A program made the translations under genes and the position numbers. The notes under the pieces were generated by a model that was not told where the DNA came from, made no database searches, and saw nothing but the letters and a program-made list of their open reading frames with translations. From positions 1-45,914 of the IMG/VR virus record IMGVR_UViG_3300008012_003552: DNA of 45,914 nt, one strand, 5' to 3'. Within the stretch, counting starts at the first letter, position 1; every line of letters begins with the position of its first letter. Source of the DNA: a virus. Shown here in pieces: positions 4,075 to 45,862 of the stretch.

Positions 4075-4427
4075 CCATTATCGTCGTACCGAAACCATTC
4101 TTCTTTGTATATTTCTAAAATCTCTGCACTATTCATTCTGTCGTATCTAAAACTACGCCAACCTTGAGCGTTTACATCCCAAACACTAACAACAGCATCT
4201 GAAATCTCACGTACCTTCTTTTGACTTAGTGTGTCGTCCTTTGTTGCACGAGGTTTCATGTCATCTCTCAATGTACAAGTCATTACTCGTTTGTCACCGT
4301 TGAGTTTATTAAAGTCTATTACTAAAACATTTTGCTCTAAAAGGAGTTTAAGATCCTCTTTAGTAGGAATACCTTTTAGAGCTGCAACGGTATCAGCGAC
4401 TGTAGACGACTTGGTCTGCGAGTCCAT
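4071..4427 (-). CDS. WYL_2-like (SH3-fold) phage protein
   Basis: A 118-residue protein. The core (about 38-100) reads [18 protein letters not shown], then a charged linker, then [20 protein letters not shown], a pattern I recognise from small Sm/SH3-like barrel proteins of T4-type marine phages (WYL_2 type). Its start lies 35 bases inside the end of the ClpP gene upstream, so it is probably coupled to it. Nucleic-acid binding is plausible for the fold but not shown. The C-terminus ([12 protein letters not shown]) is acidic. Confidence 0.55.
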
Positions 4428-5007
4428 TGTCTACTGCCTCTTGTGCTGTTAAGAAAGTATCAAATTTCATAGTTTCAAAAAGTTCTTCGTATGTTTTACC
4501 TGCTGTGTTGTGGCGCACATACAATTCAGTAAGTCGTTTGTTGATTTTCTTAGACTCTTCAAAATGTCTACGAGCATCTTCAAACTCTAATTCTTGTACG
4601 TGTACACTACCACGTGTTCCAGGTGTACCACTTGATACTCTGTGAATCATTGTTCTACTCTCAGGCAGCACAATACGTTTACCCGGAGCACCAGCTTGTG
4701 CTAAGAATGATCCCATTGAACAAGCTTGGCCCATTACAATAGTTTTAACATCACACTTGATGAATTGCATTGTGTCATAGATAGCAAGTCCTGCTGTAAC
4801 AGCACCACCCGGTGAATTAATGTATAAATTAATATCTTTGGTTGAGTCTGCTTCTAAGAATAACAATTGTGCTACAATTAGATTAGCCATATTATCTTCA
4901 ACTGGACCGTTAAGCATAACAATACGGTCTTTCATAAGACGGCTATAAATGTCGTAGGAGCGTTCGCCTCTACTTTCCTGTTCTACTACCATAGGTACTA
5001 ATGGCAT
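4393..5007 (-). CDS. clpP: ClpP-type serine protease (first copy)
   Basis: A 204-residue ATP-dependent Clp protease proteolytic subunit, close to the usual length (about 200). The substrate-channel segment [12 protein letters not shown] is at 62-73, the catalytic serine is Ser97 in GQACSMGS, the histidine is His122 in TMIHR (usual HQ is HR here), and the aspartate is Asp183 in FDTFLTA. All three triad residues are present, so it should be active. It probably forms heptameric rings and partners a host ClpX/ClpA, since no Clp ATPase lies in this window. A ribosome-binding site AAGGAAG precedes the ATG. A second, different ClpP is at 5707-6309. Confidence 0.93.
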
Positions 5008-5706: not shown

Positions 5707-6309
5707 TTAGTAAACTGTCTGAATCTTATCTGCAATATTATACTTGACTGCTTCTTCTGCGCTTAACCAAACATCTTGCGCAGGTAATAATATGTCACGA
5801 ATTACTTTTTCTTTTAATCCCGTACATTTCTTATAATGTTCTAGCATACGCTCGCTCGACAATTCGAACTCACGCACACGAGCAAAGAGTTCATGTTCCT
5901 TGCCGCCGCTACCCCAACTGTATTGATGTGACAAAATACTTGTGTTGGGAGTAATAATTCTACGTCCTTTTGTACCACTCATAAATGTAAGAATACCACA
6001 ACTTGCAATAAGTCCTAGTCCAACAGTTTTGATTGGTATTGCACTACCTTTCATTACGTCAATAAGTGCAAATGCAGCGTGTACACTGCCGCCTGGTGAG
6101 TTAATAATTAGCGTTAACTCTTTTGGCCGTTCATTTGTCGCCATTAAGTTTTTTTCAATAATCCAGTTTACAACTGGCTTAGTTGTTTCATAATTAAATC
6201 CGTCTGCAAAGTAAAATATACCTGCGTCCCACATCATTTGCCCCGGAGGTGTTGGCTTTGTTCCGCCTCCGCTGCCTTTTGCTTCTTTATCTGCATCTTT
6301 TTTTGTCAT
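5707..6309 (-). CDS. ClpP-type serine protease (second, divergent copy)
   Basis: A 200-residue ClpP-family protein different from the copy at 4393-5007. It has an N-terminal extension of about 25 residues rich in Lys, Gly and Pro. The INSPGGSV segment is at 69-76, the catalytic serine is Ser103 in GLIASCG, the histidine is His128 in SHQY, and the aspartate is Asp179 in QDVWLSA. With an intact triad it should be active and may form mixed rings with the other phage ClpP. Its ATG overlaps the stop of the TilS gene as ATGA. Confidence 0.88.
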   Translation of the reverse strand: MTKKDADKEAKGSGGGTKPTPPGQMMWDAGIFYFADGFNYETTKPVVNWIIEKNLMATNERPKELTLIINSPGGSVHAAFALIDVMKGSAIPIKTVGLGLIASCGILTFMSGTKGRRIITPNTSILSHQYSWGSGGKEHELFARVREFELSSERMLEHYKKCTGLKEKVIRDILLPAQDVWLSAEEAVKYNIADKIQTVY

Positions 6310-6908
6310 ACTACTTCTTCTTCTTTCATTTTTTTTGCTATCACTTTGTGAATACCAGGATTGATACGCAGTACGTGAGGCATCATTTTATGCCTTATAT
6401 AGTTACGATTATAGCATAAATCATTGTTGCTGTCATCCGAAATATAAGGAATATTATTTAAATTCACCCATAATTCAAAATCTCGTTTTCGTGTTAGTCT
6501 AAACGGACGTAACACATTATTTCTTTTTGATGGAATCCATTTGCCTGTTCCGTGCATACTACTAAACAACCAAGTTTCTACACAATCATCTAAGTGATGC
6601 GCTGTAATAACAGGTTTATCATTATAGTTGTCTAAAAAATTATAACGGACATTACGCCAGTGTTCTTCTTGGCTCATTCCTTTAGGCTTATCTACGTCAT
6701 TCTTACCTAATATAAATCCAATATTATTTGTCCTGCAATAATTATGCATCCAAGTAGCAGCATAGTTGCCGTGACCAGTTCCATGATTATAATGTAGAAC
6801 AATAACATTATGCTTACGCCGCAGAAAGTCGAGTGCTGCCATACTGTCAACACCTCCCGAACAGGCTACATAGATATCTTTAGGTAGTTTAGTTTGTAAT
6901 TTAATCAT
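6306..6908 (-). CDS. tilS: short tRNA(Ile)-lysidine synthetase (TilS), N-terminal domain only
   Basis: A 200-residue PP-loop ATPase with SGGVDS at residues 17-22. HYNHGTGHG, the HHLDDCVET motif and the RPF...R segment are typical of TilS, which converts C34 of tRNA-Ile(CAU) to lysidine. Host TilS proteins are usually over 300 residues; this has only the catalytic domain. The start at 6908 overlaps the upstream stop as ATGA, and the end overlaps the ClpP start. No tRNA-Ile(CAU) gene lies in the window, so the substrate could be the host tRNA or a phage tRNA elsewhere. Confidence 0.85.
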   Translation of the reverse strand: MIKLQTKLPKDIYVACSGGVDSMAALDFLRRKHNVIVLHYNHGTGHGNYAATWMHNYCRTNNIGFILGKNDVDKPKGMSQEEHWRNVRYNFLDNYNDKPVITAHHLDDCVETWLFSSMHGTGKWIPSKRNNVLRPFRLTRKRDFELWVNLNNIPYISDDSNNDLCYNRNYIRHKMMPHVLRINPGIHKVIAKKMKEEEVV

Positions 6909-7093
6909 TCTTCCCAATACTTGAGTAGCTCTAAATTATCACCTGTACCTTTGGTTTTAATATAACCGTCGTCAATTAGTTTATCAATCATTGTTTCGGC
7001 AACGTTCTCTACAGTTTTCTCTCTACCTATCCAGTAACCTAACCCTGTAAATGTCACTGCTGTAATAAACAAAAATAATTCACTGATGCCCAT
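6905..7093 (-). CDS. small single-span membrane protein, unknown
   Basis: A 62-residue protein with one N-terminal hydrophobic helix (ELFLFITAVTFTGLGYWIG, about 5-23) followed by a charged helical tail with ETMIDKLIDDGYIKTK. AAGG lies about 9 bases before the ATG. Its stop overlaps the TilS start. Similar one-helix proteins are common in T4-type marine phages with no assigned role. Confidence 0.5.
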   Translation of the reverse strand: MGISELFLFITAVTFTGLGYWIGREKTVENVAETMIDKLIDDGYIKTKGTGDNLELLKYWEE

Positions 7094-8294: not shown

Positions 8295-9078
8295 GTGAGT
8301 TATTTATTTCAACTGGTTCAGAAAAGGTTGCATCTCTTTCTAATCTATAAAAATGATGCGACTGAAGTAATTGTTTTTCTTTTCTAGCAGGACCTTTAAT
8401 ACACATCCTTGATTTGTTAACAGATTGTTTCCAGTAATTATGTAACTCTGTTCCTATAGTAGCAGTAGCAACACAAAGAACCTTATCAGTTTCTCTAATA
8501 AAATAGAAACTTTCTATTCTACTATCTCTACTACGTCTAAAGGTGCTGCCTTGATATTGGAAGTTGCCTTCTACCATAAGTCTTTTAGTTTTCTTATACA
8601 TTCTAGGAAAAGTTGCACGTTTAAATATATCTGAAGTAAACACATCTTCGTGGTAAAAATCTTCTAACTTAACTAGAGTAGGAATGAGATCGAGATTTAA
8701 TTTTTTGTCATTTTCTAATACTTTAGAAATACTTTTTAAGAAGTCACTAATATCATCGCCTTTGAGTTGTTCAATTATCACTTTATTTCTAAAATGATTA
8801 CGTATTTCTCTTGCTTTAATAATGTCATCAGGTGTAATAAAATCTTGATATGCAGCAACTGACTTTCGATCTTTAACAAACATTGTTAGCATTTCAATCA
8901 GTTGTGTGTTGGTAATTTCTTCAAATGATAATCTTACCTGTGAACAAATAATATACAACGGATCACATGCAATATCTTCTTCTTCATCCTTTGGATTCCA
9001 TATGTCAGTATTTTCCCCAATCTCTTCCCAGCGATCCATAGCAATCGCTGCCGCAATTTTATTTAATGCAGATACCAT
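8284..9078 (-). CDS. phage protein of unknown function
   Basis: A 264-residue soluble protein. The N-terminal half is helical and acidic (RWEEIGENTDIWNPKDEEEDIACDPL). The second half is basic with FRRSRDSRIESFYFIRETDKVLCVATATIG and RMCIKGPARKEKQ. No known motif is recognised. Its start shares a base with the stop of the SbmA-like gene, placing it in the hemF-sbmA operon. Nucleic-acid binding is possible for the basic half, but this is weak inference. Confidence 0.5.
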   Translation of the reverse strand: MVSALNKIAAAIAMDRWEEIGENTDIWNPKDEEEDIACDPLYIICSQVRLSFEEITNTQLIEMLTMFVKDRKSVAAYQDFITPDDIIKAREIRNHFRNKVIIEQLKGDDISDFLKSISKVLENDKKLNLDLIPTLVKLEDFYHEDVFTSDIFKRATFPRMYKKTKRLMVEGNFQYQGSTFRRSRDSRIESFYFIRETDKVLCVATATIGTELHNYWKQSVNKSRMCIKGPARKEKQLLQSHHFYRLERDATFSEPVEINNSHDN

Positions 9079-10049
9079 TATGATTCCTTAATCTGTCTTT
9101 CAAACTCACGCAAACGCTTGTACACACTTGCAAGTTCAATAATAGTTGGCCATGCTTTAAGTAGATACTGCATTGAGCCTTCTACCCTGCCAAACGCTCT
9201 AATAATCTGTTGCATTACACCTAGTGTAACTGCTCCGGCTACAATAGCAGGTGCTAAGAACACATATGCACTTAGTACGTTAGCTTGTAGATATGCAATA
9301 CGTCCAATATTAAAATACAAATAACGTATATACGACTTGAAATGAATGCCGCGAACATCTTCGAACAGTTCTTCCAGTGTCTTTGGTCTTACAGTTTCAT
9401 CGTCTTCTGCAATTACAAGGATCTTACGATACGCTGCTTCTTTCTTTTGTAAGTCATACTCTACACCTACAAGACGCAACAACCAACCTAGTCCAATAAG
9501 AAATATTGTACCACCAATTGACCAAACAAGCGCACCTGTTACGAGTCCATATTGCCAATCGCCAAAGAAGAAGATTGGAATACCAATGCTTAGTCCTAAT
9601 AAGATAGGAACAAACTGCACAAGAACCATAATTGATTCAATAAAACTAGTACCTAAGCCTTCCATGATGCGGCTAAACTTAATTGTATCTTCTTGTACAC
9701 GCTGCGCTGCACCTTCGATAGTACGTGCTCGGTCGTATACACTATGATACCATTCAACCATTGCTGCACGCCAGCGGAATAGGAAGTGTGCTGTAAAGAA
9801 ACTAATAGCCACAGCAATTAGTACATATATTGCTGCTAAGTATATAAAACTAGCAAGACTAGCCCAATACTCTCCTATTGTAATAGCATTTGGTTCTCCC
9901 AATGCTTTTTGGATCATGTCATAGAACTGACCGAACCATTCGTTAATCTTTACATCAATCTGTACTTGTACCCAAAGTGATGAAAGAATGATAGCAGTGC
10001 CTAACCAGCTCCATAGCCACCATTTCTTTTCTGTATAAAATCTAAACAT
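9078..10049 (-). CDS. sbmA: SbmA/BacA-family inner-membrane transporter
   Basis: A 323-residue protein with several membrane segments, including FIYLAAIYVLIAVAISFFTAHF, MVLVQFVPILLGLSIGIPIFFF and LVWSIGGTIFLIGLGWLL. It carries the family signature FRWRAAMVEWYHSVYDRARTIEGAAQRVQEDTIKFSRIMEGLG. SbmA/BacA proteins take up proline-rich peptides and related compounds; distant relatives import cobalamin. It is shorter than E. coli SbmA (about 400) but covers the diagnostic core. It lies one codon after hemF in the same operon, suggesting a joint role in cofactor or peptide supply. The substrate is unknown. Confidence 0.85.
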   Translation of the reverse strand: MFRFYTEKKWWLWSWLGTAIILSSLWVQVQIDVKINEWFGQFYDMIQKALGEPNAITIGEYWASLASFIYLAAIYVLIAVAISFFTAHFLFRWRAAMVEWYHSVYDRARTIEGAAQRVQEDTIKFSRIMEGLGTSFIESIMVLVQFVPILLGLSIGIPIFFFGDWQYGLVTGALVWSIGGTIFLIGLGWLLRLVGVEYDLQKKEAAYRKILVIAEDDETVRPKTLEELFEDVRGIHFKSYIRYLYFNIGRIAYLQANVLSAYVFLAPAIVAGAVTLGVMQQIIRAFGRVEGSMQYLLKAWPTIIELASVYKRLREFERQIKES

Positions 10050-10844
10050 TTATCTCCAATCTGCGGTAGGAGGTAAACTTGCTAGAATAGCCTCCGTGTC
10101 GCCGCCGGTCTTAAGACCAAATCTAGTGCCTCTATCATTAAGAAGATTAAACTCAACATAGCGACCACGCTTTATTTGCTGTGCTGCTTTGTCAGCATCA
10201 GTATATTCCATTGTGTGGAATTTATTAAATGTTTCCATTGCTGTGTCAAAGAAACCTTTGCCAACTGCTTTATGAAAATCAAAACTCATTTCTTGTGGAG
10301 AGAAGTATTCGTAGAATATTCCTCCAATGCCTCTTGTTTCATTACGATGAGGCAAGAAGAAATACTCATCGCACTTCTTTCTAAAATCTTCGTAGTATGA
10401 TTCGTCATATGCATCACATAGTTCTTTTACTTTGTTGTGATACCATGTCTCATACTCTGCATTAGGTAAGCAAGGAGTAAAGTCAAAACCACCGCCAAAC
10501 CATTCCTTGCCTGTAATAATATACCGTGTGTTCATATGCATAGCAGGAACGTGAGGGTTCATTGGGTGAAAGATAACACTAATGCCACTTGCCCAATACT
10601 CTTTGTTATTTTCTGTTCCTGGTATTTCTTTTGCGAATTCTTCTTTGAACTCTCCGCTGACACATGAATACGCAATAACTGCCTTTTCAAATGTATCGCC
10701 GTATATTGTTCTATGACGCTGATGCCAACCCTCACGCTTGTTTTCTTTTTCTACCATCTTAGTAGATTCAAAAGACTCGACACCAGCCGTAATCATATCC
10801 TGTAGTTCCATGAACCATTCAGGAGCTGATTCTTTTAAATTCAT
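10050..10844 (-). CDS. hemF: oxygen-dependent coproporphyrinogen III oxidase (HemF)
   Basis: Predicted to oxidatively decarboxylate coproporphyrinogen III to protoporphyrinogen IX, the late oxygen-dependent step of heme synthesis. The 264-residue protein has the family blocks ISVIFHPMNPHVPAMHMNTRY, WFGGGFDFTPC, KKCDEYFFLPHRNETRGIGGIFYEYF and GRYVEFNLLNDRGTRFGLKTGG. It is a little shorter than E. coli HemF (about 300), mainly at the N-terminus. Its ATG overlaps the upstream stop as ATGA. Driven from the promoter at 11595-11623 with the SbmA-like gene, it links to the ALAS, PBG synthase and bilin reductase genes elsewhere in the window. Confidence 0.95.
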   Translation of the reverse strand: MNLKESAPEWFMELQDMITAGVESFESTKMVEKENKREGWHQRHRTIYGDTFEKAVIAYSCVSGEFKEEFAKEIPGTENNKEYWASGISVIFHPMNPHVPAMHMNTRYIITGKEWFGGGFDFTPCLPNAEYETWYHNKVKELCDAYDESYYEDFRKKCDEYFFLPHRNETRGIGGIFYEYFSPQEMSFDFHKAVGKGFFDTAMETFNKFHTMEYTDADKAAQQIKRGRYVEFNLLNDRGTRFGLKTGGDTEAILASLPPTADWR

Positions 10845-13283: not shown

Positions 13284-13291
13284 TATTTATG
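13284..13291 (-). promoter_or_regulatory. late-type promoter box (CATAAATA)
   Basis: CATAAATA on the minus strand, 26 bases upstream of the 506-residue gene and overlapping the last codons of the bilin-reductase gene. It differs from T4 late consensus at the first base only. Confidence 0.5.
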
Positions 13292-13979
13292 CTATTTTAG
13301 GGAACAGCATGTCCTTGCAGAATTTGTCTACTTCAGCTTCTGGTAGTCCTAGGCTTTTCATAGTACGAGGCGTATGTGGATTCTGTTGCTGGTTTTCACA
13401 GTAATAGTTTTGTGCTACTGCACACTCTATTTCATCTGCTGTGTGATTAAAATCTTTTACTTCCCATAGGTATGCATCTAAGTTGTCAAGTGCTAGTCGA
13501 ATAATCTCTGCTGCTTCTTCTTCAGTCTTTACATTGCCTGCTGCTAACATATTACCACTAAAGATATTGCGAGCCCATTCAGGCAGTTCACGTTTCTTTT
13601 TAGGAATAAAGTCTTTTACACTTTCTGCATAACCTTCCATCATAGGATGATTAGGATTAACACTGCGACTATAATCGTGGAATGCACCTGTCATCTTAGT
13701 TGCGCCTGCAATAACATCAAAACCATATATTGGTGCATCGTTGTGTAGTTGCGGGAACACACAAACATGCATCATCCATAAGCCACGTTGCTCACGTGCA
13801 TCTACAACATCAATGTGAGCACGACGAATATGGTCGCTATTCCAAGTCCTGTTAACCCAACCATTCTCAGGTTGGTTATAGTCTCCGAGTCCGTCTTCGT
13901 CATACTCTTCAAGGTGGTATTCGAATTTTTCGATAATCTTTTCTTGGCAGTCAATTAACTTCTCCCATATCATGCTCAT
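13287..13979 (-). CDS. pcyX: ferredoxin-dependent bilin reductase (PcyA/PcyX-like)
   Basis: A 230-residue protein of the HY2/PcyA family, which reduces biliverdin to phycobilins with electrons from ferredoxin. The core reads AHIDVVDAREQRGLWMMHVCVFPQLHNDAPIYGFDVIAG, then KMTGAFHDYS, matching the family. His71 (WMMH) and Asp88 (YGFD) correspond to catalytic His88 and Asp105 of Synechocystis PcyA. Marine phages are known to carry PebS and PcyX enzymes, and the non-cyanobacterial gene setting here fits PcyX best; the product cannot be predicted by eye. It ends an operon clpS - 41-residue protein - reductase joined by ATGA overlaps. ATG 13979 is used; a second ATG lies two codons in. Confidence 0.85.
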   Translation of the reverse strand: MSMIWEKLIDCQEKIIEKFEYHLEEYDEDGLGDYNQPENGWVNRTWNSDHIRRAHIDVVDAREQRGLWMMHVCVFPQLHNDAPIYGFDVIAGATKMTGAFHDYSRSVNPNHPMMEGYAESVKDFIPKKKRELPEWARNIFSGNMLAAGNVKTEEEAAEIIRLALDNLDAYLWEVKDFNHTADEIECAVAQNYYCENQQQNPHTPRTMKSLGLPEAEVDKFCKDMLFPKIA

Positions 13980-14101
13980 AGTCTTGTTCCTGAATTTCCA
14001 AATGGATCATTTGCTTTACGTGTTGCATATTCTGCATACGCAATCATACCTGCACAATAGATCCAAAATGTTGCACAGAGAATTATTCCACCTACGGTCA
14101 T
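13976..14101 (-). CDS. 41-residue membrane peptide between clpS and the bilin reductase
   Basis: A very short frame (ATG at 14101, stop at 13976) with one hydrophobic segment (GGIILCATFWIYCAGMIAYA) and a polar tail. Both ends overlap neighbours as ATGA, which strongly supports translation. The function is unknown; a small inner-membrane peptide is the simplest reading. Confidence 0.6.
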   Translation of the reverse strand: MTVGGIILCATFWIYCAGMIAYAEYATRKANDPFGNSGTRL

Positions 14102-14412
14102 ATTTCTTCTTCTAATCTTACTGACAACGGAAATCCTTGGTCTCTACTTAGTTTTGTAGTTTCAAGTGCTTTCTGTTCGGCAATTTCATAATCATATGTG
14201 CCTACAACAGCAGATCCTTCGTTATGTATTTTCATAGTTAATGTCTCTGATCCTGTATCAGAATGCTTATAGATTTCTTTAAGTATACTTAATACCCAGT
14301 CAATAGGAGTTTCGTTATCGTTAAGCATGATAACATTATATTTACTTGGTAATCTTATTTTATTATCAATTTTTTCATCGATATTTACATCTGTGTCAAT
14401 AGCTGTACTCAT
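14098..14412 (-). CDS. clpS: ClpS adaptor (N-end rule)
   Basis: A 104-residue protein with an N-terminal extension, then the ClpS core: PSKYNVIMLNDNETPIDWVLSILKEIYKHS, IHNEGSAVVGTYDYEIAEQKALET, and SRDQGFPLSVRLEEE. ClpS binds ClpA and delivers substrates with destabilising N-terminal residues. The NDxxTPxxWV and HxxG patterns of the recognition pocket are kept. GGAG precedes the ATG, and late-type boxes lie upstream. With two ClpP subunits on the same genome it suggests phage control over host proteolysis. Confidence 0.9.
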   Translation of the reverse strand: MSTAIDTDVNIDEKIDNKIRLPSKYNVIMLNDNETPIDWVLSILKEIYKHSDTGSETLTMKIHNEGSAVVGTYDYEIAEQKALETTKLSRDQGFPLSVRLEEEI

Positions 14413-14490: not shown

Positions 14491-14934
14491 TTAATACTGA
14501 TCAACAGTTTTAATGCTGATCTTTTTTGGCTGTAGTTCTTCGGGTACTTCATGTTTTAAATGAACATTTAGCATACCAAGTTCTAACATTGCACCTTCAA
14601 CTTCTACGTGATCTGCAAGTGTAAATTCTCTGCGGAAATTACGTCCGCCAATACCTTTGTGTAAGTAGTTGACGTTTTCATCACCTTTAGGAGCTGTACC
14701 TTCAATACGCAATGTGTTACCATCTTTCGTAATATCTAGGTTATCCATACCAAAGCCAGCGACAGCGATACTAATCATGTATTCATCTTCGTTAATCTGT
14801 GCTATGTTGTATGGTGGGTAACCTGTTGCATTTGGACTATTTTGGAATCTTCTTTCCATATCATTGAATAGTCGATCAAAGCCAATAGTTGCTCTGTGAA
14901 AATGTGGTAGGTCTAGGGTTGTAAGTCTTGTCAT
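14491..14934 (-). CDS. small heat-shock protein (Hsp20/IbpA)
   Basis: A 147-residue holdase chaperone of the alpha-crystallin type. The N-terminus carries the IbpA-like FDRLFNDMERRFQNS. The core runs from PPYNIAQINEDEYMISIAVAGF through DITKDGNTLRIEGTA and YLHKGIGGRNFRREFTLADHVEVEGAMLELGMLNVHLKHEVPEE, ending before a short tail. T4-type marine phages commonly carry this gene. A late-type box GATAAATA lies 58 bases upstream and a hairpin follows the gene, so it is probably its own late transcript. Confidence 0.93.
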   Translation of the reverse strand: MTRLTTLDLPHFHRATIGFDRLFNDMERRFQNSPNATGYPPYNIAQINEDEYMISIAVAGFGMDNLDITKDGNTLRIEGTAPKGDENVNYLHKGIGGRNFRREFTLADHVEVEGAMLELGMLNVHLKHEVPEELQPKKISIKTVDQY

Positions 14935-15002: not shown

Positions 15003-16136
15003 TTACGCATAAACAGCGTTAAATTGTTGAGTACAACGAACAAATGTTGTACAACGACTTAAATGCTTGAGCCTTTGTGCTCCAGCATATGTGCAGGTAG
15101 ATCTTAGTCCTCCGAGTAAATCTTGCACGGTTATACCCACAGAGCCTCTGTAAGGAACTAAGACCTCTCTGCCTTCGGAAGAACGATAATCTTTCAATCC
15201 TCCGAAATGCTTTGTGTTTGCTGCGTCACTACTCATACCGTAGAACTGCACAAACTGTTTTTCTTTTACTAGATAGTTAAGACCGTCTTTCATTAGTTCA
15301 TCTGTCTTAAACATCTTTGTTATTACTTCGCCGCCGCCTTCATCGTGTCCTGCAAACATACCGCCTAGCATTACAAAGTCAGCACCGGCAGCAAAGGCTT
15401 TAGCAACATCACCAGGACAAGTACAACCACCATCAGCAATGATATGGCCACCCAATCCATGTGCTGCGTCTGCACATTCGATAACCGCACTAAGTTGCGG
15501 ATATCCCACTCCAGTCTGTATCCTAGTAGTGCATACGCTACCAGGACCAATACCAACTTTAACAATATCAGCGCCACTTAAAATCAACTCCTCTGTCATT
15601 TCGCCTGTAACTACGTTACCTGCAATAATTACTACGTTTGGATAATCATTTCTAAATTTCTTTACAAAACTAGCAAAGCGTTCTGAGTAACCGTTTGCTA
15701 CATCAATACACACAAACTTCATATGATCGCCTGCTTGTGCATATACTTGATGAAACTTTTGTGCATCTGCGTCTGTAATGCCGATACTCATTGCTACATT
15801 TTGTTTGCGGTATTCCGGGCCAAAGTATTCTGTAAGCTCTTCTACACTATATGTTTTTACAAGACATGTAAACATACCCTGTTTAGCAAGTGTGTCAGCC
15901 ATTTCAAATGTACCAACACCATCCATGTTAGCAGCCATGATAGGAATACCGCGGTAGTGTCTAGGTATAGCAGGGTAGCCAGGTTCGGCAGTTGGTTCTG
16001 CGACCATTGGTGCTGTGTAATTACGGAATGTAAATCCTCTATTAAGGTCTACTTCTTTGCGGCTACCCAATGTGCTGCGCTTAGGACGTATGAGAACGTC
16101 TTTATAGTCGTACTTCATGTCTTCTTCAAGACGCAT
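15003..16136 (-). CDS. guaC: GMP reductase / IMP dehydrogenase family
   Basis: Predicted NADPH-dependent conversion of GMP to IMP, in purine salvage. The 377-residue protein starts [29 protein letters not shown], close to bacterial GuaC. It keeps the catalytic-cysteine loop [20 protein letters not shown], the [24 protein letters not shown] phosphate-binding region and a late GRE motif. It lacks the CBS domains of IMP dehydrogenase. About 16 extra residues near 45-60 distinguish it from E. coli GuaC. Together with NrdAB it points to purine-pool management. Confidence 0.9.
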
Positions 16137-21717: not shown

Positions 21718-21876
21718 CTATTTTGCAACACCTCTTTTAATCATAGGTTTGATTGCATCTTCTGCTTGTTTCCTAGTCCAATTAAATTTTTTCATTGCAT
21801 CTTTATAGAGTTGTTCTTCTGTTTTAGCAGCTCTAATTAAACCAACTAAAAATTTATCTATTTCAATCCAATTCAT
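21718..21876 (-). CDS. 52-residue helical protein downstream of the tmRNA
   Basis: A short frame with ATG at 21876 and a strong AAGGA 6-10 bases upstream. It encodes a mostly helical protein (MNWIEIDKFLVGLIRAA, then QLYKDAMKKFNWTRKQAEDAIKPMIKRG) with a possible helix-turn-helix-like second half. It lies directly after the tmRNA coding piece in the same direction, so both may share the late-type promoter at 22177-22184. No family is recognised. Confidence 0.6.
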   Translation of the reverse strand: MNWIEIDKFLVGLIRAAKTEEQLYKDAMKKFNWTRKQAEDAIKPMIKRGVAK

Positions 21877-21890
21877 ATTATTCCTTAGTT

Positions 21891-22170
21891 GGAGGCATTC
21901 TGTTGCCCGGGGCCTCCGTAACCGCGAACTGCCCTTAGGCTGCTTCTAAGACTCCGTCGAAGTCAAAAGAAAGTTCAGGTTTGAAATTGTCATTTGCAAT
22001 TATCATTTTTCTTGCGTTACGTAGCTTGCGCACGATTAACTCCACTTCATTTTCACACCTGTCGATCCTATTTCTGCCCCATAAAAAACACACTTGTCTA
22101 AATGTGCTTATGGTGGAGCAGTGCGGTACCGCCCCGCAGTCCAGTATGTGTCCACGTTGCTTCAACGCTA
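21891..22170 (-). ncRNA. ssrA: circularly permuted two-piece tmRNA (alphaproteobacterial type)
   Basis: The acceptor piece comes first on the minus strand: a T arm TGCGG/CCGCA with a 7-base loop at 22138-22122, then CTGCTCC-A-CCA ending at 22111. After a 30-base spacer hairpin the coding piece starts at 22080 with GGGGCAG, which pairs with CTGCTCC over 7 bp, followed by the tmRNA-typical GGATCGACAGG. The tag frame starts with the resume codon GCA at 21997, begins ANDNF, ends VLEAA and stops with TAA at 21935 (20 residues). Then a GC-rich pseudoknot-like segment with hairpin GGAGGC/GCCTCC closes at 21891. The outer ends are approximate. It frees stalled ribosomes and tags their products for Clp proteases. 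No smpB is in the window. Confidence 0.88.
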
Positions 22171-22175
22171 ACAGT

Positions 22176-22742
22176 TTATTTATACAGCCTTTTTTTGATG
22201 ATGTCAACCACTCTTTTAGATAGAACTACTTCATAATGATTACGATCAATATAATCATATTCAATATCGTTTCTACACATCATTGATTGTTTAGTAACTA
22301 TGCCGTCATTCTTTCCAGCAAGCCACGGAACATCACCTGTAGTTGTTACTATCTGCATCCAAGGTATTGTGATAGGTATAAGTCTACTGTATCGAATAAA
22401 GTCACTTGAAGGTTTAATATCTCTAAATAACTGATATGTAGGATTTAACATTGATCCCCATGTAGCAATCTCACTTCCATTAAACGGTGTTGCCAAACTT
22501 ACAACACCGTTTATGTTAAAACGTTCTTGTAAATAAGTTGCATATACTCCGCCGAGGCTATGTGCTACAATAACATATGTATCTTTTTTATCTAGAGTGT
22601 TGCACATATTCTCTAGATTTACAATAGCCTTATCTTCTTTTTCGTAGTTTAAAAAAATAGGGTTTTTTATTTTGATTTTTTGTTGTATGTAAGCAAAACT
22701 TCTTTCACTGGCAGTTGCGCCATGTATGAATATGGTCTTCAT
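22176..22742 (-). CDS. alpha/beta-hydrolase (lipase/esterase-like)
   Basis: A 188-residue serine hydrolase. The start MKTIFIHGATASERSF carries the oxyanion-hole HG motif, the nucleophile elbow is AHSLGGVYA (Ser62), then an Asp in AGKNDGIVT and a final His in RNHYEVV complete a plausible triad. The elbow GHSLGG is changed to AHSLGG. No signal peptide is present. Its ATG overlaps the upstream stop as ATGA. The substrate is unknown; membrane lipids or small esters are possible. Confidence 0.8.
   Translation of the reverse strand: MKTIFIHGATASERSFAYIQQKIKIKNPIFLNYEKEDKAIVNLENMCNTLDKKDTYVIVAHSLGGVYATYLQERFNINGVVSLATPFNGSEIATWGSMLNPTYQLFRDIKPSSDFIRYSRLIPITIPWMQIVTTTGDVPWLAGKNDGIVTKQSMMCRNDIEYDYIDRNHYEVVLSKRVVDIIKKRLYK
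22177..22184 (-). promoter_or_regulatory. late-type promoter for the tmRNA
   Basis: Exact TATAAATA on the minus strand, formed by the last codons and stop of the lipase gene (Leu-Tyr-Lys-stop). It places the tmRNA acceptor piece about 10 bases downstream. Confidence 0.6.
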
Positions 22743-44653: not shown

Positions 44654-45862
44654 ATGATAGATGTCAACCCTTTCGAGGATAAAATAAACCAATTAAAAGA
44701 AGCAGGCAAATATCGAGTGTTCAACGACATTGTAAGAGAACGTGGAGACTTTCCTAAAGCAATATGGTACGGACCATATTCAATTAAAAATATTGTAAAT
44801 TGGTGTTCAAATGATTATCTAGGTATGGGTCAAAACAAAACTGTAATTGATGCTATGCACACTGCACTTGATCAAACTGGTGCAGGATCAGGAGGTACAC
44901 GTAACATAGGCGGTACTAGTCATTACCATGTTGCCCTAGAACAAGAATTAGCTAATTTACATGATAAACCATCGGCGTTACTTTATAGTAGCGCCTATGT
45001 AGCAAATGAGTGGACTCTTATCGCCCTAAGCACTATTGTTACCGACATTGTGTTTGTAAGTGATTCTAAGAATCACGCAAGTCTCATACAAGGAATCAGA
45101 CACAGTGGTGCCGAGAAAGTAATATTCCAGCACAACAATATGGACGACCTAGAAGAGAAGTTGGCGTATGTTGCCTCCCAGAATAAAACACCTTGTGTTG
45201 TATTCGAATCTGTGTATAGCATGGACGGAGATGTCTCTCCAATTACACACATTTGCGATCTAGCCGAAAAATATAATGCTATTACATATATTGACGAAGT
45301 TCATGCAGTAGGATTGTACGGAGAGAAAGGCGCTGGCTATTGCGAAATGCTCGGCGAAACAAGAATAGACTTTGTAAACGGTACTCTTGGAAAAGCATTT
45401 GGTGTTACTGGTGGATATGTTGTTGGAGAAGAAGTTGTAATAGATGCAATAAGATCAGTTGCATCTGGATTTATATTTACAACATCAATGAGTCCAGTAA
45501 TATGCGCTGGTGCGTTGGCTAGTATAAAGTATCTAAGAGATCATAATGAACTTAGAATACAACACCAAGAGCGTGCTCATAAACTTGTAAAAAGTTTAGA
45601 GAAAGTAGGCATAGAAGTGTTAGAAGATTCTTGTACACACATTGTTCCAGTTATGGTACGAGATGCTAAAGTATGTAAAATAATGAGTGATGAACTTTTA
45701 AACCGTTACGGTATATATGTTCAACCTATTAATTATCCAACAGTTGCAGAAGGCGCTGAAAGACTAAGGTTTGCTCCGACTCCGTTACACACAGACACAA
45801 TGATGGAACATCTTGTCGAATCACTTAAAATTGTTTTTAACAAATATAATATAGGAAAATAA
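44654..45862 (+). CDS. hemA: 5-aminolevulinate synthase (Shemin pathway, HemA)
   Basis: Predicted PLP enzyme that condenses glycine with succinyl-CoA to 5-aminolevulinate. The 402-residue protein matches the length of alphaproteobacterial ALAS. The motifs are [11 protein letters not shown] (49-59), [13 protein letters not shown] (76-88), KNHASLI (139-145, His141), [12 protein letters not shown] with Asp214 and His217, and the PLP lysine Lys247 in NGTLGKAFG. The C-terminal SxVPVMV-type region and the final helix are intact. AGGAA precedes the ATG. The enzyme is used by alphaproteobacteria and not by most other bacteria, which supports that host. Its TAA runs directly into a DUF454-like start. 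Confidence 0.96.

Follow-up and report, generated by a model that had tools for sequence, protein, structure and literature searches.

A circularly permuted, two-piece tmRNA gene of alphaproteobacterial type in a probable jumbo-like phage fragment

The DNA analysed here (the window, 45,914 nucleotides) is a virus record in IMG/VR, and it carries on its minus strand a circularly permuted tmRNA gene of alphaproteobacterial type. The gene most likely encodes a working two-piece tmRNA that a lineage of large phages of lytic type has retained. A reading made from the sequence alone had described a phage-borne RNA of this kind, and the description is supported by ARAGORN, by Rfam covariance models and by relatives of the gene in other viral contigs.

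The exonuclease of the window is closest to those of jumbo phages such as XbC2, CBB, GAP32 and RaK2 (44-46% identity), and tail-spike-like and large-phage metabolic genes are also present. A blastn search with 2.6 kb returned no close relative among named phages, only short matches to the tmRNA. Taken together, these features make it likely that the window is part of the genome of an uncultured, aquatic jumbo-like phage. The alpha-type RNA and a 5-aminolevulinate (ALA) synthase (44654-45862, plus strand; TIGR01821, 558.6 bits), which shares 44-57% identity with alphaproteobacterial ones, suggest an alphaproteobacterial host. They are not decisive, because phage ALA synthases have been published (PMC11480375) and because the two-piece tmRNA of the OM43 (Methylophilales) phage Melnitz is of alpha type although that phage infects a gammaproteobacterium (PMC9004378). 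The RNA does bear on the host class, as the sequence-only reading held, but calling it strong evidence went too far.

In the published case the phage ALA synthase occurs with a bilin reductase, and HemF is absent from that paper (PMC11480375). The window encodes a ferredoxin-dependent bilin reductase (13287-13979, minus strand; PF05996, 62.7 bits) and an oxygen-dependent coproporphyrinogen oxidase (10050-10844, minus; NF003727, 300.3 bits). The minus strand also carries a TilS-like tRNA lysidine synthetase N domain (6306-6917; TIGR02432, 115 bits), a GMP reductase (15003-16136; NF003470, 507.4 bits, cut-off 397) and a homologue of the SbmA/BacA peptide transporter (9078-10049; 461.7 bits), which is unusual for a phage.

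Anatomy of the gene and its proposed mode of action

All features described in this section lie on the minus strand. ARAGORN called a permuted tmRNA at 21844-22204 with the tag ANDNFKPELSFDFDGVLEAA and a stop. Both Rfam models matched the same strand and the same pieces: alpha_tmRNA (RF01849) over the full model at 21887-22211, with 117.2 bits and an E-value of 1.9e-31 (gathering score 50), and tmRNA_permuted (RF04321) at 21935-22172, with 111 bits (gathering score 47). The gene order is that of a permuted tmRNA, in which an acceptor piece with encoded CCA lies 5' of the coding piece and a spacer stands between them. The acceptor piece (22111-22172), delimited by sequence reading and Rfam, comprises the T arm, the acceptor 3' half CTGCTCC, the discriminator A and the CCA; its T arm and acceptor half were read as GGAC-TGCGG-GGCGGTA-CCGCA-CTGCTCC-A-CCA at 22142-22111. 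The coding piece (21887-22080), recognised from sequence, ARAGORN and Rfam, contains the tag frame and a 3' hairpin and begins with the acceptor 5' half GGGGCAG (22080-22074). This half pairs with CTGCTCC in a 7-bp acceptor stem, and the G3-U70 wobble is seen directly in the window. The tag reading frame (21935-21997) opens at an alanine resume codon, GCA at 21997, and ends in Ala-Ala followed by TAA (21937-21935); ARAGORN and direct reading give the same 20-residue frame. The sequence-only reading had placed the CCA end at 22111, the start of GGGGCAG at 22080 and the resume codon at 21997, and all these coordinates are correct, as are its acceptor stem and the length of its tag.

Towards its 3' end the coding piece has a terminal hairpin (21891-21917), formed by GGAGGC...GCCTCC and carrying the alpha-type GGGCAACAGAA loop; the hairpin aligns with RF01849 around positions 330-353. 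After the tag, the window tmRNA lacks about 42 positions of the model, so that the pseudoknot region is partly reduced. Among the matches listed, phage tmRNAs score lower with RF01849 (64-138 bits) than bacterial ones (195-313 bits). The 30-nt spacer (22081-22110) has a predicted hairpin fold (-8.0 kcal/mol, z -4.2), and among relatives the spacer varies from 12 to 410 nt. Upstream of the gene, sequence and conservation mark a putative sigma-70 promoter, TTGACA-N17-TATAAA (22179-22207), which overlaps the 3' end of the preceding ORF. Of 26 related tmRNA loci, 24 have a TTGACA-N17/18-TATAA arrangement 29-38 nt before the T-arm motif. A stricter consensus scan for promoters and terminators found no terminator and did not list the TTGACA/TATAAA pair, since it demands T as the last -10 base. 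On the other side, a small ORF (MNWIEIDK..., 21736-21876) starts 10 nt past the tmRNA; it has no Pfam match, and a relative of it is present in one of the related contigs, L090 (43% over 55 residues).

From this anatomy a sequence of steps can be proposed. Host RNA polymerase would transcribe a single precursor from the TTGACA/TATAAA promoter, and host tRNA-processing enzymes would remove the hairpin spacer by cutting after the CCA and before GGGGCAG. The two pieces would be held together by the acceptor stem and other helices, and alanine would be charged by the host alanyl-tRNA synthetase through G3-U70. In the infected cell, host SmpB would then bring the tmRNA to ribosomes that have stalled on cleaved or degraded mRNAs, after which the 20-residue tag would be added to the stalled protein. 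Since the tag keeps the terminal Ala-Ala, the tagged fragment would most likely be degraded by ClpXP, possibly aided by phage ClpP and ClpS homologues. No SmpB was detected in the window, in 18 relatives or in the complete 469-kb genome of the Sinorhizobium jumbo phage Phosso (PV764938). A search for ClpX gave none in the window or its relatives; it was found in Phosso only.

The tag and its possible Clp partners

Relatives of the gene were collected by a search with the tag-start pattern, which gave 19 viral contigs, and by a search for exonuclease relatives, which gave 80 loci. The window tag belongs to a 19-20-residue -VLEAA class, and other relatives carry shorter tags at the same locus, either of 9 residues (ANANYSLAA, ANENFALAA, AKANYSLAA) or of 13-14 residues (ANDNYAPEMALAA, ANDNRAPAMAIAA, ANANRAPEMALAA, ANTNAAPAMAIAA, ANSNFAPSGYALAA, ANDNFAPSEFALAA). 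The tag had been described as ending like host degradation tags. This is true of the final Ala-Ala but not of the residue before it: an EAA end occurs in none of 78 alphaproteobacterial tags, which end in LAA (46), VAA (12), IAA (8), AAA (7) or otherwise (5). Nearly all host tags have a hydrophobic or small residue where the window tag has Glu, although such a residue is not a strictly defining tmRNA feature. Across 84,980 prokaryotic genomes the start pattern ANxNFKPEL gave 7 matches, none of them in a tmRNA. The 19-20-residue -VLEAA class was found only in this viral lineage and seems to be the new element. Unusual long tags, for example ANIKVSNDNTPFEAMKVAA and ANDNALSNVTFVDFSAPVTAVNEDFALAA, were also seen in four other viral contigs that match the general tmRNA pattern (L057, L087, L097 and L114). 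Two members of the -VLEAA class, L090 and L122, differ by four synonymous changes and yet specify an identical 19-residue tag, which, in small numbers, points to selection on the tag peptide.

The window encodes a ClpS adaptor homologue (14098-14412, minus strand; PF02617, 78.5 bits) and two ClpP homologues, one at 4393-5007 (minus; PF00574, 212.5 bits; NF001368, 249.3 bits against a cut-off of 249) and a more divergent one at 5707-6309 (minus; PF00574, 105.9 bits). All three are possible partners of the tmRNA. An HSP20 gene (14491-14934, minus) lies on the same phage fragment. ClpS was found in 16 of 20 records, among them Phosso and the window itself, and also in 3 relatives in which no tmRNA was detected; joint action is therefore not required, and a joint module of ClpS/ClpP and tmRNA is possible.

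These observations have to be weighed in relation to a different role, in which the phage RNA would compete with host tmRNA as a decoy and its -EAA tag would alter the fate of unfinished proteins. Proteins bearing the tag might be degraded more slowly by ClpX/ClpA or be routed to the phage ClpP/ClpS; both this role and its details are unlikely. The restriction of the -EAA class to this lineage, the maintenance of its residues through synonymous change and the presence of ClpS and two ClpP homologues would fit such a device. However, the tag retains the terminal Ala-Ala, on which recognition of the E. coli ssrA tag by ClpX chiefly depends (PMC7652416), relatives at the same locus bear ordinary -LAA/-IAA tags of 9-14 residues, and ClpS is not confined to records with a detected tmRNA. 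A benchmark of ssrA variants (PMC8512704) holds nothing on Glu at the third-last position. That degradation is tuned by the -EAA change and the greater tag length is speculation. If the -EAA tag does alter it, a virus would have modified a central signal of quality control. Tags of 9-20 residues at one locus form a natural series on the roles of the tag during infection.

Conservation and origin of the locus

The reading as a working tmRNA kept by the phage lineage is supported by the relatives. RF04321 scored over its cut-off in 27 of 50 records tested, 5 of which had been picked by tag pattern and 45 by exonuclease; among the latter, 22 were over the cut-off and one more matched less strongly. 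The tmRNA of each of these 23 shares the strand of the exonuclease and lies 7.6-14.5 kb downstream of it (8.5 kb in the window). Four records extend 14.6 kb or more beyond the exonuclease in the downstream direction and gave no tmRNA match, and three of them, when rechecked, contained no RNA family at E <= 1; the tmRNA gene is therefore dispensable. The other 18 negative records picked by exonuclease are too short downstream for judgement. The tmRNA gene is thus usual, not rare, in this phage lineage.

The stems of the RNA have changed in a compensatory manner. Sequence motifs that fix pairs 1-3 (G3-U70 included) and leave pairs 4-7 free were used to locate the acceptor halves, which pair fully in 23 of 23 lineage and Phosso loci. 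These loci represent 8 stem types, and cross-type combinations of halves gave full pairing in only 2 of 56 cases. Both stems, T and acceptor, are paired in every cell (100%) of 16 distinct sequences, 15 from the lineage and one from Phosso, and their 12 pairs show 42 two-sided changes; here too, acceptor pairs 1-3 were set by the motif that located the halves. The covariation score was 0.56 as compared with 0.14 after shuffling, and none of 500 shuffles reached it. Together with the Rfam E-values, this shows that the tmRNA match is not due to chance. The relatives most likely indicate a functional gene that has long been resident in the lineage.

Parts of the RNA look swapped between phages, perhaps by recombination. 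L231 and L233 have a common spacer and different downstream parts, while L240 and L241 have a common coding piece and different spacers. The tmRNAs of L122, L129, L135 and L136 combine the -VLEAA tag with a T loop of canonical sequence, TTCGAAT, and a spacer of 12 nt; these genes were missed by ARAGORN and found by RF04321 with 96 bits. A broader proposal, that a jumbo-phage lineage maintains at a fixed locus a modular tmRNA in which T arm, spacer, pseudoknots and tag are exchanged among phages, with ANxNFKPEL-F-...-VLEAA tags selected for a different protein fate together with phage ClpP/ClpS, is rather improbable on present evidence.

A tree of the T arm and the start of the coding piece places 20 lineage tmRNAs in one group, drawn open with a support of 91/100, apart from 77 bacterial ones. 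A second group is made up of five further lineage tmRNAs (within L251-L256), and that of Phosso is placed with the bacterial ones. The tree gives weak support, because it rests on 139 columns and many of its forks are open.

The same evidence bears on the possibility that the gene is a non-functional passenger, a piece of host ssrA left by imprecise excision or at an integration (att) site. The gene ssrA is a common site of bacterial integration and its fragments occur in prophages (PMC9004378), but here the gene is complete and has a promoter, its stems show compensatory changes, the same locus is occupied across many related phages, and most lineage tmRNAs form their own group in the tree. 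A passenger is very unlikely, and this reading is largely refuted by covariation and synteny. An att-site ssrA, with an integrase beside a partial copy, was ruled against, as the gene is complete and no integrase domain was found among the genes scanned, which were part of the ORFs. Bacterial contamination or an assembly chimera in a viral bin is barely credible: host-like tags occur in many IMG/VR contigs that match the general tmRNA pattern, and such contigs may be of bacterial origin, but the present arrangement recurs in independent contigs from many metagenomes with jumbo-phage-type genes around it, and the recurrence refutes this reading. The fixed locus, the own promoter, the covarying stems and the own tree branch argue that phages can maintain a split tmRNA as a gene of long standing and not as an accidental host fragment.

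Comparison with known tmRNAs

The sequence-only reading had considered a phage tmRNA rare and a permuted one rarer still, which is overstated. By 2021, tmRNA was encoded by 402 of 18,146 phage genomes examined, with 133 unique structures, and 53 two-piece phage tmRNAs had been counted, 50 of them aquatic (PMC9004378); in 2025 the tmRNA database contained 79 unique tmRNAs from phages (PMC11915505). In bacteria, RF01849 was over the cut-off in 174 of 190 sampled alphaproteobacterial genomes. The window tmRNA shares all tRNA-like and tag-frame features with the alphaproteobacterial two-piece type (RF01849; Caulobacter type) and differs from it in its lower score, the positions missing after the tag and the 20-residue -EAA tag.

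The tmRNAs of Melnitz and related marine phages are likewise phage-borne, aquatic and permuted, with an alpha-type T arm and acceptor, and the match to the window covers 36% of the gene at 70% identity. However, Melnitz has a 141-kb T4-like genome and a gammaproteobacterial host, and its tmRNA is tied to a glutamine riboswitch (PMC9004378), whereas no Rfam riboswitch was over threshold in the window. Among jumbo phages of Sinorhizobium, AP-J-162 carries a tmRNA (PMC11242549), and Phosso resembles the window in its permuted tmRNA (RF04321, 113 bits), in ClpS and two ClpP and in lacking SmpB. Phosso differs in its host-like tag ANDNV...ALAA, its 410-nt spacer and its own ClpX. Phage-borne permuted tmRNAs of alpha type have therefore been published already, and what seems new in the window is its unusual tag.
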